A stretch of 64,000 nucleotides of DNA from an uncultured Psychrobacter sp. Lineage in GTDB: Bacteria; Pseudomonadota; Gammaproteobacteria; Pseudomonadales; Moraxellaceae. The notes beneath the pieces were generated by a model, which had not been told where the DNA came from, did no database searches, and saw nothing but the letters and a program-made list of their open reading frames with translations. Numbering within the stretch: position 1 is the stretch's first letter; each line of letters begins with the position of its first letter. Both the position numbers and the translations under genes were made by a program. The stretch covers positions 310,001 through 374,000 of the forward strand of contig CANLDW010000001.1 in the NCBI GenBank assembly GCA_947489525.1, in the 5' to 3' direction. Of this stretch, positions 1,308-53,380 are shown one piece after another.

Positions 1308-4286
1308 TTAACGATTAGGCACAGTCAACCGTTGACCACGCTGTAGCAGCGTATCAGGAGCGATATCATTCATATTGGCAAGCTCTTGGGTCGAGATGTT
1401 ATATCTGCGTGCCAATCCAATGAGACTATCGCCCGATGCTACGGTATAACTCACCGTAACTTTAGGGACTTTAAGCGTTTGACCACGCTGCAATTGCGCG
1501 TTGGTCGCTAGGTTGTTAGTCGCCGCTAGATCAGCTACAGAGACACCAAACTGACGCGCGAGAGCGATAAGGCCATCGCCTGCTTGAACTTTATAGTTTT
1601 CAGTATTACTAAGCTTAGTACCGCTACTAGATTGAGCACCACTACTAGCTGCTTGGTTACTGGAGCTTGAGGCGCTACTGCTACTAGTAGGCGCACTGCC
1701 GCTGGCAGGAATCGTAATTGTGCGTCCGCGTATTAAGTTGGACGTCGTTGTCAAATTGTTTGCAGCTGCCAGATCGCTTAGACCTATGTTGTAGCGCTGG
1801 GCGACTCCTGTCAGGGTATCACCCGATTGCACTTTATAACTAACGGGCTTATCGTTAAGCTGACGCTCAACCACGTCTTTTGATACCGGAACCTTTATGG
1901 TTTGACCGCGCTGTAGACGGGCTTTAGCATCAAAGCTACTGTTCACTGCTGCAATCTGTGCAGCACTGACACCAACACTATTAGCAATACCGATAAGGGT
2001 ATCGCCTGACTTAACTTTATAGTCCGTCGTCGCTACATTCGCTGAAACTGTGCTGCTAGAGGTATTGCGACTAGGCGCACTCGTGTCAGCATCGGCAGGT
2101 ACTTTAATCGTTTGACCAACGTATAAAGAGTCGTTTGTGTTTAGGCCGTTTAAATTTGCTAGCGTCTGCGTGGGTATATTAAATTGACGTGCCAGCGCTA
2201 TAAGGCCATCACCGCGTCTTACTTTGTAAGCCTTAGTTGTTGCAGACGCGGCTGGGGTACTCTTAGGCGCCGCAACTTTATCCGGTACCAGCCATAGCTT
2301 TTGACCTGTCAGTAGATCAGCGCGGCTGCTTAAATTGTTATAACTGGCTAGCTGAGTCACAGATAGCCCAAAGCGATTAGCAGTACCGATCAAGGTATCC
2401 CCTGCTTTGACCGTATAGCTCTCAGGTTGACTAGCAGCTGCGGAACTGGCACCACTTAACGCCTCTATAGGCTTGGCGTTATATAGATACAGTGTACTAC
2501 CTGATAACAGGTTAGCATTGGGATCTATCTGATTCCACTCAGCGATCTCGCGCCAGTTTACCCCAGCTCTACTTGCAATATTAGATAAGGTATCGCCACG
2601 CTTGACCACGTAGGTACTACGCGTGCCTTGTGGCTTTGGTTTACTGGCTTGATTATTGAAGGTTAGTTTTTTCTCTTTACCACTAGCCTCTAGTATAGAC
2701 TGCTGCGTTTGTATCGCTGATAGCTTAATATTGCCATCGACGTCACTGACGACATTAGTCTCAGGCGTTTGGCTGCGAATCTGATTAGCAATAAAGTCGC
2801 GCTCTGCTTGGCTCAGTGGCGGCTCTTGTACAACGGTGTTGTTTCGGGTAATTTGCGCGGACGTGGTGGGTAGATTGTTACTACTTTTTAGCTCAGCATT
2901 AATTTTACTCACCTCAGCGCTTGTAAGCGGTGGTTCACTGCTTCTAATGCTGCTTTGATTATAAGCAGGGCTACTCATTGGCGTCGCTACGGGCGAGATG
3001 TAACTGGTGGTCTGCTGCGGCACGCTAGCATTAGCCGCGTATTGAGCCAATGCGCTGCCCGTTGAAGGTAGTGAGCCGCCACTATAAGGCTGGTTGTTAT
3101 AGCTTGGCGTATTAGCCGTTGGGTAGCCTGAAGGCACTGTAGTCGTGGAAGCGATCACATTGCTCGTGCCATTACCTCTCAGCGCTGTCAATCTGGCATC
3201 GACATTGGCATCAACATCATTTGGTATGATCACCCGCTGCGGCCCTGATGAATCAACGCGCGCTGAGATCAGTGCTGTATTGAGACGTTCAAGCTCATCA
3301 TAGCTCACCCCAGTAATTTGTGCTACCTCAGCTAAGCTCACTCCATAATTTACTGGTACGCTTCTAAAGTGTTGACGGTTGGCAATAGCAGGCAAGTAAA
3401 CCCCGTATTGCTCAGGGTTCGCCACGATTTCAGCCACTGCTAAGAAGCGCGGTACATAATTCATCGTCTCAGTCGGTAGACTAAGCGACCAGTAGTCTGT
3501 TGGCAGACCTTGCGCAGCGTTACGGTCGATGGCTTTTTGAATGCGTCCAGGACCGGCATTATAAGAAGCTAATGCCAGCTCCCAGCTACCGAACTGATTA
3601 TAAAGTGCAGTCAAAAAGTCATAGGCAGCACGTGTCGACTCGATAACATCGCGGCGACCATCATACGTGCTGCTTTGGTTTAGACCGTAGATGCGACCCG
3701 TACTAGGAATAAATTGCCATAAACCTGCAGCAGCCGCGCTACTGGTCGCTCCCGGATCGTATGAGCTCTCAATAATTGGTAGGAGCGCAAGCTCAGTTGG
3801 AATATTGCGGCGCTCCGCTTCGCGTACGGTATGATACAAATAGCGACTGGAGCGCGCTGTCAAGCGGTTTAAATAGTCTTGACGACTGGTAAACCAACCT
3901 TTTTGAGCTTCAATACGCTGATTGTAGACAGGTTGACTATTCATGCGATAGCCTGCACGCAGGCGATTCCACAAATCACCGTATTGCTGAATAGCCAGTT
4001 TATTGCCCTCAACCATTGACATATCACTGGCTTCTAGTAGATCTGCCAGCTCATCTAAGCTCTCTGCATCCAGATAAGCAGTCGAATAATCCGTGGTTGC
4101 CGTCGCAGCAGTCGTAGTAGAAGGCCGAACTGCTGAACGCTGTGTGACGACAGGCGAGGCGCTGACAGCGCTCGGGTTTTTAATGACAGAGGCGTTGTTA
4201 CTACAAGCGCTAAGCAGCAGCGCTGATACAGCAAGTGTCAAAGGTAGAGCGGCGTATGAGCGAGGGTTTGAGTACACAGTAGACAT
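1308..4286 (-). CDS. mltD: Lipoprotein lytic transglycosylase MltD with seven LysM repeats
   Basis: Outer-membrane murein lytic transglycosylase D of 992 residues. It opens with a lipoprotein signal ending in lipobox LLSAC (Cys28). An SLT catalytic domain spans about 145-290, with Glu173 in PIIESSYDPGA and the motif ASYNAGPGRIQ. A degenerate LysM-like unit follows at about 310-356. Residues 370-555 are a Ser/Thr/Asn/Pro-rich linker. From about 559 to the C-terminus there are seven well-formed LysM units, each beginning Y-x-V-x-x-GD-x-L and ending near a V-P. LysM binds peptidoglycan glycan chains. E. coli MltD is about 450 residues with two LysM units, so this copy is much expanded. It is a single-gene unit whose stop faces a shared terminator. 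Confidence 0.93.
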   Translation of the reverse strand: MSTVYSNPRSYAALPLTLAVSALLLSACSNNASVIKNPSAVSASPVVTQRSAVRPSTTTAATATTDYSTAYLDAESLDELADLLEASDMSMVEGNKLAIQQYGDLWNRLRAGYRMNSQPVYNQRIEAQKGWFTSRQDYLNRLTARSSRYLYHTVREAERRNIPTELALLPIIESSYDPGATSSAAAAGLWQFIPSTGRIYGLNQSSTYDGRRDVIESTRAAYDFLTALYNQFGSWELALASYNAGPGRIQKAIDRNAAQGLPTDYWSLSLPTETMNYVPRFLAVAEIVANPEQYGVYLPAIANRQHFRSVPVNYGVSLAEVAQITGVSYDELERLNTALISARVDSSGPQRVIIPNDVDANVDARLTALRGNGTSNVIASTTTVPSGYPTANTPSYNNQPYSGGSLPSTGSALAQYAANASVPQQTTSYISPVATPMSSPAYNQSSIRSSEPPLTSAEVSKINAELKSSNNLPTTSAQITRNNTVVQEPPLSQAERDFIANQIRSQTPETNVVSDVDGNIKLSAIQTQQSILEASGKEKKLTFNNQASKPKPQGTRSTYVVKRGDTLSNIASRAGVNWREIAEWNQIDPNANLLSGSTLYLYNAKPIEALSGASSAAASQPESYTVKAGDTLIGTANRFGLSVTQLASYNNLSSRADLLTGQKLWLVPDKVAAPKSTPAASATTKAYKVRRGDGLIALARQFNIPTQTLANLNGLNTNDSLYVGQTIKVPADADTSAPSRNTSSSTVSANVATTDYKVKSGDTLIGIANSVGVSAAQIAAVNSSFDAKARLQRGQTIKVPVSKDVVERQLNDKPVSYKVQSGDTLTGVAQRYNIGLSDLAAANNLTTTSNLIRGRTITIPASGSAPTSSSSASSSSNQAASSGAQSSSGTKLSNTENYKVQAGDGLIALARQFGVSVADLAATNNLATNAQLQRGQTLKVPKVTVSYTVASGDSLIGLARRYNISTQELANMNDIAPDTLLQRGQRLTVPNR

Positions 4287-24319: not shown

Positions 24320-24380
24320 TAGCAGTGTATCGGTTTTATAGTGATTCAACTATATACGGAATAAACCCAAGCATTAAATC

Positions 24381-24414
24381 AAGGTTTCAAGGTTTCAAGG
24401 TTTCAAGGTTTCAA
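24381..24414. repeat. Four perfect 8-bp tandem repeats
   Basis: AAGGTTTC is repeated four times without error, then AA. It lies 108 bp upstream of the lipoprotein start, in the promoter region. A period of eight would shift spacing with each gain or loss. Confidence 0.9.
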
Positions 24415-49390: not shown

Positions 49391-50791
49391 TTAAGCGCCA
49401 AGCAAGCTTTGACCACAGACGCGTACCGTGTTGCCATTTAGACCACCTGATGCTGGTGAAGCAAGCCAAGCGATAGTCTCAGCAACATCAACAGGCAGAC
49501 CACCTTGACTCATAGAGTTCATACGGCGACCCGCTTCACGAATGGCAAAAGGAATGGCTTCTGTCATTTGCGTCTCAATAAAGCCGGGTGCAACCGCGTT
49601 AATCGTCATGCCATTATCATTACGTGCCAACTGTTTGGCAGTGGCGTTAACCAGACCTATGACGCCTGCTTTTGAGGTTGCATAGTTGGTTTGTCCTAAG
49701 TTACCAGCGATACCTGAGATTGAAGAGACGCAGACGATACGCGCGTTTTCTTTAAACACATCGTTATCTAATAAGTAGCGATTGAGGCGAGCGATACTGG
49801 CAAGGTTGATATCGATCACCATATCCCATTTTTTTTCATCCATCTTGGCAAGTGTTTTATCGCGTGTGACCCCAGCGTTATGAACAATAGCATCCAGACC
49901 GCCGCGTTTTTGCGCCGCCTCAGCGATCTCTTTACCCGCCTCATCACTGGTGATATCTACCGCAAGCGTTGAACCACTGATCTCGCTGGCAACTTTTTGT
50001 AGATCTGCTTGCTGCTGCGGCACATCTAGACAAATCACATGCGCGCCTTCACGAGCTAATACACGGGCGATGGCTTCGCCAATACCGCGACTAGCGCCAG
50101 TGACCAGCATGGTTTTGCCGCCCAAAGGCTGTGTCCAGTCCACATCGATAGCGTCGCCTTTGCCGACACGCACAACCTGTCCTGAAACGTAAGCTGAGCG
50201 CGCAGAGGTAAAGAAGCGTAGTGTTGAGTCAAGGTTTTGCTCAGCGCCTTCTTCAACATAAATGAGCTGGGCGGTAATACCGCGTTTAAACTCTTTACCT
50301 ACCGATTTAACAAAACCCTCAAGCGAGCGCTGAGCCAAGGCACCTTCTATATCAGTGATGTTCTCAGGCGGGCGACCAACGATAATCACACGACCAGATT
50401 TTTCAACGCGGCGCGCTGCTGCATGAAAGAACTCATAAACGGCTTTGAGCTCATCAGCGTTACTGATATTGCTGGCATCAAACAATAAGATTTTAAACTT
50501 ATCTTCGCTCCCTGTATTGGCTTTTGCTTCTACATCCGCCTCAGCTAACGCGTCTTTCACGCTATCACTGCTGTTCACAAATACCTCAGCATGCAGCTCA
50601 GACAAAATACGGGCAATCGATGCACTGACGCGGTTGTCATCGCCTGTGGCAGCACCGACCAGCACACTGCCGCGCACCAAGCGCTGACCACTCTCGAAAC
50701 GGTCAAGAGCAACCGGCATAGGCAAGCCTAAATTTTTAGCAACTTTTTTACCAACTGAGGATTGAACAAATTCACCGTAACGGTCTGACAT
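49391..50791 (-). CDS. 3-oxoacyl-ACP/CoA reductase, high-molecular-weight FabG (FabG4-like)
   Basis: A 466-residue SDR reductase. The N-terminal 215 residues form a separate, degenerate Rossmann-like domain, and residues 224-460 are the active SDR domain: TGASRGIGEAIAR at 231-243, NAGVTRDKTLAKM, and the catalytic NYATSKAGV. This two-domain layout matches the FabG4-type enzymes, which reduce 3-oxoacyl-CoA or ACP with NAD(P)H. AAGGAA precedes the ATG. It faces the thiolase across a 795-bp gap. Confidence 0.9.
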   Translation of the reverse strand: MSDRYGEFVQSSVGKKVAKNLGLPMPVALDRFESGQRLVRGSVLVGAATGDDNRVSASIARILSELHAEVFVNSSDSVKDALAEADVEAKANTGSEDKFKILLFDASNISNADELKAVYEFFHAAARRVEKSGRVIIVGRPPENITDIEGALAQRSLEGFVKSVGKEFKRGITAQLIYVEEGAEQNLDSTLRFFTSARSAYVSGQVVRVGKGDAIDVDWTQPLGGKTMLVTGASRGIGEAIARVLAREGAHVICLDVPQQQADLQKVASEISGSTLAVDITSDEAGKEIAEAAQKRGGLDAIVHNAGVTRDKTLAKMDEKKWDMVIDINLASIARLNRYLLDNDVFKENARIVCVSSISGIAGNLGQTNYATSKAGVIGLVNATAKQLARNDNGMTINAVAPGFIETQMTEAIPFAIREAGRRMNSMSQGGLPVDVAETIAWLASPASGGLNGNTVRVCGQSLLGA

Positions 50792-50855: not shown

Positions 50856-50900
50856 TATAGACGCTGATTTTATAGACACCGGTTTTATAGATGCTGAGCA
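50856..50900. repeat. Three degenerate 15-bp tandem repeats upstream of the reductase gene
   Basis: TATAGACGCTGATTT, TATAGACACCGGTTT and TATAGATGCTGAGCA in direct succession. Read on the minus strand the units present CTATAAAA-like boxes facing the reductase, 65-110 bp from its start. Confidence 0.75.
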
Positions 50901-51433
50901 CAATCACAGTGCCGCGTACTATAAAAACTGGCCTAACTATACACGTCCAGAGTATACAAGTCCAAGTGTTGCTGTCATATGTCACTATCACAATATGACT
51001 GGTAAGATGACGTTAATTAACACCGAACCTAGTGTAGTGCTGCTAGCATAAACTGCGGCAAAGATAAACGACTAGACAACAACGCGTTACCGATCAACCA
51101 TTTAAAGTACTACCGCTTATGCTAAAATCAGCAGCACTTAAGAGGTTTTGATTAAATGCTACTTGCCATGCCGTAGTGAGTACTTACCTGCGTATGGCTT
51201 GTTTATCTCTTTGACTGGTAAGTTATTTTACTTAGCTTTTTTAATCAAATCTTACTTTAAATAATTTGCAACAAGATATTAATACACGATTAAACAAGGA
51301 TCTACATACCACAAGCCTAGCGTATCTAACCAACCTAGGACTGCATAGCGTTATGGATATAGACTACTCTTAGCTTATGCAAAAGCCTATAATACTTAGT
51401 CAAATCTAACTATAATGCGACACTGTCGTGACG

Positions 51434-51512
51434 TTATGATACGTATTTACGTTTTATGATAAGTAATAATACCTTATGATAGGTATTAACCTCTATGCTA
51501 AATATTGATAGC
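51434..51512. promoter_or_regulatory. Four degenerate 20-bp direct repeats upstream of the thiolase gene
   Basis: Units start TTATGATACGTATT (51434), TTATGATAAGTAAT (51454), TTATGATAGGTATT (51474) and CTATGCTAAATATT (51493). A period of about two helical turns fits an array of binding sites on one DNA face. TATAAT boxes lie just upstream at 51388 and 51411. The rest of the 795-bp gap also holds TTTGATTAAA (51147) and its inverse at 51240; no gene is supported. Confidence 0.6.
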
Positions 51513-51586
51513 TTATCTTGTTTATTGTAAATTTTTAGCATGCTTTTTATACCTTACCTACAATCATATGCTTTAAGGATAATTTT

Positions 51587-53380
51587 ATGAGTAACAATAA
51601 GAATAGCCCCGTCGTCGAGAGTACCGTCGTAAAATCTGGTGGTAAAGAAGTGAGTAACACTGCTCGCCCAACCGATAATAAAGATAACAAGGATCAAAGT
51701 AGCAGTGCCAGTCAAGATAACGAAGCGCACTACGACTCTATCGCTGAGCTAAAAAAAGCCACAGATATCGTTGATGCAGATGGTAATTCTGTCGACGATA
51801 CCCAAAGCAATAACCAAAGTCAGAAAAAAGCAAAGATTAAAGAGGATTTGCGTCAAGAAGCTGAGAATGCTGATAACCTCAATACTTTTGATACCACAGC
51901 CAACTCTGCAACCTCTGAAACTAAAGCTAACCAACAACAAGAGCCAAGTATGAATAACACGAGTAATCAAAAAGATAGCGCCAACAACGCGCAAAAAACA
52001 ACTCAAGATAGCAGCGATAAGTCTAACACTGCCTCTAAAACCTCAGGTGCTACTCAAACCTCAAAAGCGGCCAAGCGCAGTAACACTAAGCTGAGCCCGA
52101 ATCAGCAGCGCGTTGCAGTCATTGGCGGTAATCGTATTCCGTTCGCCCGTTCAAACGGCGCGTACGCGGATGCTAGCAACACAGATATGCTAACAGCTGC
52201 CCTAAATGGTTTGATTGAGCGTTACAACTTGCAGGACGAAGTATTAGGTGAAGTGGTCGCAGGCGCAGTCATGAAGCTAAGCCGTGACATCAACTTAACG
52301 CGTGAGTCCGTACTCAACACCGCCCTTAATCCGCATACCCCATCGTACGACATCTCTCAAGCTTGTGGTACTGGTCTACAAGCCACGTTTGCCTCAGCGA
52401 ACAAAATCGCCTTAGGTCTTATTGACTCAGCGATTATAGGCGGTGTGGATACCACTTCAGACGCTCCTATTGCCCTAGGTGATGGTCTGCGCAAGGTAAT
52501 GATTAAACTTGGCGCTGCTAAAGACAACAAACAACGTCTAAAAGCATTAATGGGTATTAATCCAAAAGACCTGCTCGATACGCCGCAAAATGGTGAGCCG
52601 CGTACGGGTTTATCGATGGGCGAGCATCAAGCGATTACAACGCTTGAGTGGAACATTGGTCGCAAAGAGCAAGACGAATTGACTTTCAATAGTCATCAAA
52701 ACTTAGCGCGCGCTTATGAAGAAGGCTTCTTTGATGATCTTATCACTCCATACAAGGGTCTGACTCGTGACAACAACCTGCGTCCTGATACAACGGTTGA
52801 AAAACTGGGCAAACTAAAGCCTGTATTTGGTAAAAAGAGTCCTCATCCCACCATGACCGCTGGTAACTCAACGCCGCTCACCGATGGCGCCTCATGTGTG
52901 CTGTTAGCTACAGATGAGTGGGCAAAAGAGCACGATCTAAAAGCGCTCGCTTATATCGTGCATCAAGAAACAGCCGCTGTTGACTTCATAGGCAAGACGG
53001 GTAGAACCGAAGGTCTGCTCATGGCGCCAACGTACGCTGTCCCGCGTATGCTTGAACGTGCTGGTCTAAGCTTGCAGGACTTCGACTTTTATGAGATCCA
53101 CGAAGCCTTTGCCGCGCAAGTGCTCTCAACGCTTGCCGCTTGGGAAGATGAGACCTTCTGCAAAGAGCGCTTAGGTTTGGATGCGCCGCTTGGCTCTATC
53201 GACCGCAGCAAGCTTAACGTCAACGGCTCATCACTTGCAGCCGGACACCCTTTTGCAGCAACGGGTGGCCGCATATTAGCCACTGCTGCTAAGCTGCTAG
53301 ACCAAAAAGGTTCAGGTCGCGCGCTAATCTCTATCTGCGCCGCTGGCGGTCAAGGCGTAACTTGTATCTTAGAAAAATAA
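51587..53380 (+). CDS. Acetyl-CoA acetyltransferase (thiolase) with long disordered N-terminus
   Basis: A 597-residue thiolase. The core begins near residue 172 (NQQRVAVIGGNRIPFARSN). The nucleophile Cys260 is in DISQACGTGLQA, His in FYEIHEAFAAQV, and the C-terminal Cys in SICAAGGQGVTCILEK. It cleaves or forms 3-oxoacyl-CoA. Residues 1-170 are Asn/Ser/Asp/Gln/Thr/Lys-rich, predicted disordered and unlike any thiolase domain. AAGGAT precedes the first ATG, supporting the long form; an in-frame ATG at codon 122 (51950) could start a shorter one. FadI-like; a FadJ partner is not adjacent. Confidence 0.9.
   Translation: MSNNKNSPVVESTVVKSGGKEVSNTARPTDNKDNKDQSSSASQDNEAHYDSIAELKKATDIVDADGNSVDDTQSNNQSQKKAKIKEDLRQEAENADNLNTFDTTANSATSETKANQQQEPSMNNTSNQKDSANNAQKTTQDSSDKSNTASKTSGATQTSKAAKRSNTKLSPNQQRVAVIGGNRIPFARSNGAYADASNTDMLTAALNGLIERYNLQDEVLGEVVAGAVMKLSRDINLTRESVLNTALNPHTPSYDISQACGTGLQATFASANKIALGLIDSAIIGGVDTTSDAPIALGDGLRKVMIKLGAAKDNKQRLKALMGINPKDLLDTPQNGEPRTGLSMGEHQAITTLEWNIGRKEQDELTFNSHQNLARAYEEGFFDDLITPYKGLTRDNNLRPDTTVEKLGKLKPVFGKKSPHPTMTAGNSTPLTDGASCVLLATDEWAKEHDLKALAYIVHQETAAVDFIGKTGRTEGLLMAPTYAVPRMLERAGLSLQDFDFYEIHEAFAAQVLSTLAAWEDETFCKERLGLDAPLGSIDRSKLNVNGSSLAAGHPFAATGGRILATAAKLLDQKGSGRALISICAAGGQGVTCILEK

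Follow-up and report, generated by a model that had tools for sequence, protein, structure and literature searches.

Results

The window analysed here, a 64,000-nucleotide stretch of DNA from an uncultured Psychrobacter species (G000), contains a FabG-type reductase gene on the minus strand and a thiolase gene on the plus strand, which flank a gap of 795 bp with a G+C content of 34% (Table 1). As proposed in the original prediction, an array of short repeats lies in the gap shared by these two genes. A MaoC-like gene adjoins the reductase gene. The thiolase is encoded in all 105 Psychrobacter genomes (60 of 60 and 45 of 45), and a search of 104 loci, own included, found fabG in 100 and not in the remaining four. 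The first ~165 residues of the thiolase (51587-52081) form an N-terminal extension outside the family profile, which starts MSN..SPVVESTVVK-like in most among the relatives listed. The gap also contains a second short tandem repeat close to where fabG starts (50856-50897, 15 bp x 2.8), and elsewhere in the window TCAAGGTT is repeated 4.5 times without error (24379-24414).

Table 1. Features of the fabG/thiolase locus, in window coordinates
Feature	Position	Strand	Remarks
3-oxoacyl-ACP reductase, FabG type	49391..50791	-	PRK08261
fabG-side conserved stretch	50924..50965	-	found in the gaps of 67 of 101 relatives; probable fabG promoter
Extended -10-like element TTATGCTAAAATC	51117..51129	+	common to relatives
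Unit 1	51434..51453	+	TTATGATACGTATT; TATGATACGTATTTAC matches 14/16 of the Tn7-like end site TATGATARGTAATTAC
Unit 2	51454..51473	+	TTATGATAAGTAAT; TATGATAAGTAATAAT matches 14/16 of TATGATARGTAATTAC
Unit 3	51474..51492	+	TTATGATAGGTATT; TATGATAGGTATTAAC matches 14/16 of TATGATARGTAATTAC
Predicted degenerate terminus	51492..51500	+	TCTATGCTA, in place of the TCAATGACA of known ends; 6/9; overlaps unit 4 (51493)
Stretch alignable with the gap of G041	51502..51586	+	74%, E=7.1e-8; second comparison with the same genome 70.6%, E=0.011
Acetyl-CoA C-acetyltransferase (thiolase)	51587..53380	+	PRK09268; ATG at 51587

The units share the motif TTATGATA-x-GTAWT. Four phased 20-bp repeats had been predicted; three of them are real and exactly 20 bp apart, whereas the fourth (CTATGCTAAATATT) is not convincing: it starts 19 bp on and is a poor copy, with 3 of 13 positions deviating from TTATGATANGTATT and a score of -9.1 bits by the transposon-end matrix described below. 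In a de novo search for four 14-mers at a period of 20 ± 1 the array scored 50 out of 56, more than each of 1000 dinucleotide shuffles of the gap (mean 39.8, maximum 45), and with any period from 10 to 40 allowed the maximum in 60 shuffles was 45. The array was not among the repeats reported by TRF at score 30, and the core-versus-linker contrast of the units, a test for selection, was non-significant (p=0.09).

We then compared the gap across the genus with one genome per species. Of the 105 genomes G059 was left out (contig end); among the remaining 104 loci L027 and L139 yielded no thiolase start, the gaps of L006 and L149 comprise only 21 and 104 nt, and fabG is absent from L054. When the 100 gaps of at least 200 nt, own included, were searched with up to two mismatches, the own gap yielded three plus-strand copies of the motif, and of the 99 other gaps 3 had one plus-strand copy, 8 had one copy on the opposite strand and 88 had none, so that none contained two or more copies on the thiolase strand. 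The array is also absent from the gap of G054, the sister of the window species in a tree of thiolase and FabG (support 0.979). The original prediction had expected conserved and spaced units across Psychrobacter gaps; with none in these relatives, a conserved regulator array is largely refuted.

The gaps of the relatives share other elements instead. A conserved block, near TTGCTAAAGAyATACArTAA, is present at 15/20 or better in 81 of 102 gaps (two were too short to tell) and is followed by the odd palindrome TTATSATAA, which is matched at 8/9 or better in 70 of the 81 block-bearing relatives and exactly in 39 (1.6 and 0.13 in shuffles), has its best position 14-16 nt past the block in 79 of the 81, and is found in 27 of 36 gaps after removal of near-duplicates. 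A further palindrome, TTGATAACAATATATTATCAA, reaches at least 17/21 in 80 of 100 gaps (e.g. L026) and sits 30 nt past the end of the extended -10-like TGCTAAAAT in 33 of 36, with CTATAAGTTATGG standing between the two. The sister species keeps both the block (15/20) and the palindrome (17/21), and the own gap scores 12 and 14, respectively. By these scores, the window species has lost block and palindrome; it has kept the -10-like element and the fabG-side stretch.

Across 16 genomes the block had 74 matches at up to three mismatches versus 20 for reversed controls; at up to two mismatches there were 14, 11 of them in the thiolase gap and 3 elsewhere. The palindrome had 68 matches versus 33 in 12 genomes, and all 7 with at most one mismatch were in the thiolase gap. 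This palindrome is genus-restricted. In 40 Acinetobacter and Moraxella loci, covering the plus strand at about 1501-3400 only and without a control, the best matches were 15/21 for the palindrome and 15/20 for the block. Folding of the conserved leader gave 5 pairs at -0.97 kcal/mol, 0 of them with a compensatory change; Rfam had nothing at the gathering threshold in the window, and in four relatives' loci it gave three sub-threshold matches, none inside the gap. None of the papers listed by a broad literature search contained either motif string, and no known binder for TTGATAACAATATATTATCAA was found. Unexplained conserved elements of the Psychrobacter fabG/thiolase gap come to light in this comparison.

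The array had been taken for a set of operators of a fatty-acid-responsive TetR/GntR regulator, for which the gene context and the phasing speak. However, apart from its absence from the gaps of 99 relatives, the motif is not enriched across the genome (210 matches versus 234 for the reversed control), and the array recurs mostly at transposon ends instead (see below). For CTTATSATAARC we counted 57 matches versus 9 in 7 genomes, corresponding to ~44 distinct places as palindromic sites count twice; of 20 stretches around such sites in three genomes 10 were in ORFs and 10 intergenic, and ten neighbouring proteins analysed with Pfam gave no fatty-acid set (3 of 10 had no family match). A fatty-acid regulator array is therefore unlikely, and we assign this origin a very low probability. 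As a separate observation, both G000 (L337) and G011 (L340) have, near 1600-1625 and upstream of an oxidoreductase gene (PF00175), TTATGATAA within an inverted repeat whose arms are GCGC.

Besides matches on the start-codon side, a similarity search hit the array itself at a different locus in G032 (51 bp at 79%, E=2.3e-4) and G078 (33 bp at 85%, E=0.003). There TATGATARGTAATTACTCA is repeated in tandem at period 20, four times in G032 and three times in G078, with the end of glmS on one side and a TnsA gene (PF08722, PF08721) on the other. Matches in G102 and G045 from the same search were discarded as reading of the DNA revealed no array. A phased pair of motifs with up to two mismatches occurred in 11 of the 105 genus genomes (reversed control, 1 match); in G042, G022, G093 and G103 no two sites match the 16-mer with up to three mismatches, and the pairs there are probably chance occurrences. 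With at most one mismatch, the phased pair was restricted among 348 family genomes to the window genome and G032, G078, G024, G025 and G002 (reversed control, 1), all five other carriers being Psychrobacter.

Four of these five carry the array at glmS: in G032 and G078 it is part of Tn7-like right ends with TnsA just inside, and in G025 and G002 it belongs to solo or mini ends. The element of G078 has tnsB (PF09299), tnsC (PF11426), tnsD (PF15978) and tnsE (PF18623) after TnsA, and its left end, ~20.5 kb away, contains three sites spaced by 54 and 67 bp on the opposite strand. The packed plus three spaced sites of G078 correspond to the known Tn7 layout: in Tn6171 of Acinetobacter, the tns end carries four copies that overlap and the other end three separated ones (PMC8190619). 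The G078 element (contig C1, about 3119762-3140425; L374-L375) looks like a complete tnsABCDE transposon at glmS, and further ORFs inside it resemble, by eye, a type I restriction-modification set. End sites at glmS are found in G025, G040 and G002, none of which gave a TnsA match. In G002 both kinds of end site lie within about 200 bp; this stretch (L376, about 896-1095) resembles a miniature Tn7-like element at glmS with the edges TGTAGGCGAG... and ...CTCTCGTACA. For G024 glmS does not adjoin the array in the stretch read, and a TnsA match (47%) is on another contig. Searching plasmids with the G032 end gave 21 records (E 1e-5 to 0.07 for the best 15 of 21), and in three 5-kb neighbourhoods of these matches there was no annotated Tns gene, nor did Pfam find one when run on one neighbour each. 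The window DNA had no match among plasmids, and the exact phased pair none among viral contigs.

Next, we quantified how well the array fits these ends. Three units, each at 14/16, stand at a fixed period of 20, as TnsB-type sites do. In a matrix built from 18 end sites with the window left out, the window triple scored 25.8 bits, as compared to -11.2 bits for the highest-scoring place elsewhere in 1.144 Mb (G000 plus three relatives, on both strands) and -19.6 bits for the top score among the 99 other gaps. Of the order of chance, 55 of 200,000 simulated random AT-rich period-20 arrays reached 25.8 bits, a frequency that needs a look-elsewhere correction, as the array was compared with 105 genomes, to a guessed value of perhaps 0.01-0.05. 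As many genomes were searched to find it, the match is suggestive, not proof. Individually, the units scored 10.3, 8.5 and 7.0 bits versus 18.0-33.7 bits for true sites (matrix of other genomes, leave-one-genome-out). All 18 end sites have G as the base preceding the core, all three window units have T there, and the linkers also differ; simple decay of a member of that end-site family therefore does not account for the window array.

A Tn7-like right end is marked by a TGT/ACA terminus next to its outermost site, by tns genes inside, by an accompanying left end and by duplication of 5 bp of the target. If the array is a right end facing thiolase, unit 3 is the outermost site, beside which a terminal ACA is absent in the window; a degenerate terminus is predicted there, with the outer side towards thiolase, but 36 of the 787 9-mers of the gap match known termini equally well, which makes this match weak. 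Homology to the gap of G041 resumes shortly after the predicted terminus. No left-end site on the opposite strand of the gap scored above 3.0 bits. TnsA had no match in the window genome in a search that was positive in G032, G078 and G024 (a separate family-wide search was run without a positive control); missing tns genes would be expected of a solo end, as in G025, G002 and G040.

Finally, we surveyed short arrays. G000 has 14 in 400 kb, whereas three relatives have 3 in 680 kb (p=0.00017; G040, 0 in 200 kb; G004, 2 in 200 kb; G054, 1 in 280 kb), and no array was present in Markov controls, which covered the first three samples. The 14 arrays (L245, L250, L252-L256, L258-L260) correspond to ~8x the pooled rate of the three relatives and 3.5x that of G004; 10 of them are outside ORFs of at least 100 aa, and one is at a contig end.

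Discussion

Phased sites for a DNA-binding protein, as originally proposed, are the best reading of the array, yet the likeliest binder would be a transposase, TnsB, rather than a regulator that responds to fatty acids. In Tn7-like elements this transposase has several binding sites at the end on the tns side. We tentatively favour, and rank first, the view that the thiolase promoter gap contains the right end of a Tn7-like transposon, either as a decayed relic or in a divergent form. An element end with candidate TnsB sites would have landed before thiolase with its outer side towards this gene. Psychrobacter ends consist of direct, exactly phased 20-bp units followed by a terminal ACA, and the window units have the same phase, which suggests a common origin; the rest of the element would since have been lost, and the block and palindrome of the gap are gone as well.

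The main rival, a serious alternative that we rank second and consider possible, is a lineage-specific tandem duplication of the gap's own TTATSATAA in an array-rich genome, with copies that are regulatory or not. TTATSATAA is genus-conserved in this gap, units 1-3 match it at 8, 9 and 8 of 9 positions, MAFFT sets unit 3 on it, G000 is rich in short arrays, and in the gap of G071 a different array, of four units at period 20, is found at another place (L242, score 48). However, the MAFFT alignment rests on AT-rich, poorly alignable DNA, scattered TTATSATAA-like sites are common (at least three in 28 of 99 gaps, own included, with no array in the others), and duplication leaves unexplained the further matching positions and the exact 20-bp phase in common with Tn7-like ends. 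That the array is a neutral short tandem repeat related to neither element would fit the array-rich genome and the non-significant contrast between core and linker, but its units match two independent kinds of element, and we consider this improbable. Chance in AT-rich DNA, which the low G+C content of the gap would favour, is negligible, as 0 of 1000 shuffles reach the array score, and is already refuted for units 1-3.

Coming back to the right-end relic, a far-reaching version of it holds that an end from a divergent Tn7-like family, vanished otherwise, displaced two genus-conserved control elements and that the phased sites, now the promoter's upstream region, would act as a cis-regulatory array; we regard this as rather unlikely. 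A regulator-like phased repeat can be a transposon scar, and the locus, with a sister species keeping the ancestral elements, provides a concrete case in which to study a possible rewiring of promoters by scars of this kind.

Compared with known systems, the window array is similar to PsrA/FadR-type operators in being near a thiolase gene. The halves of PsrA operators are GTTTG/CAAAC, and unlike these the units as read contain neither. With short intergenic tandem repeats it has in common that it is species-restricted and located in an array-rich genome, but it shares its exact phase and core with transposon ends. The solo or mini ends of G025, G040 and G002 have sites that deviate far less from the family consensus, and they are at attTn7, but like the window they have end sites and no TnsA match. 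The Tn7 family is present in Psychrobacter (G032, G078). From a Tn7-family end the window differs in having three sites only at 14/16, no terminal ACA, left end or TnsA match, and a position away from glmS; like the right end of Tn6171, it has direct, close-packed ~20-bp sites at one end with the outer side next to host DNA.
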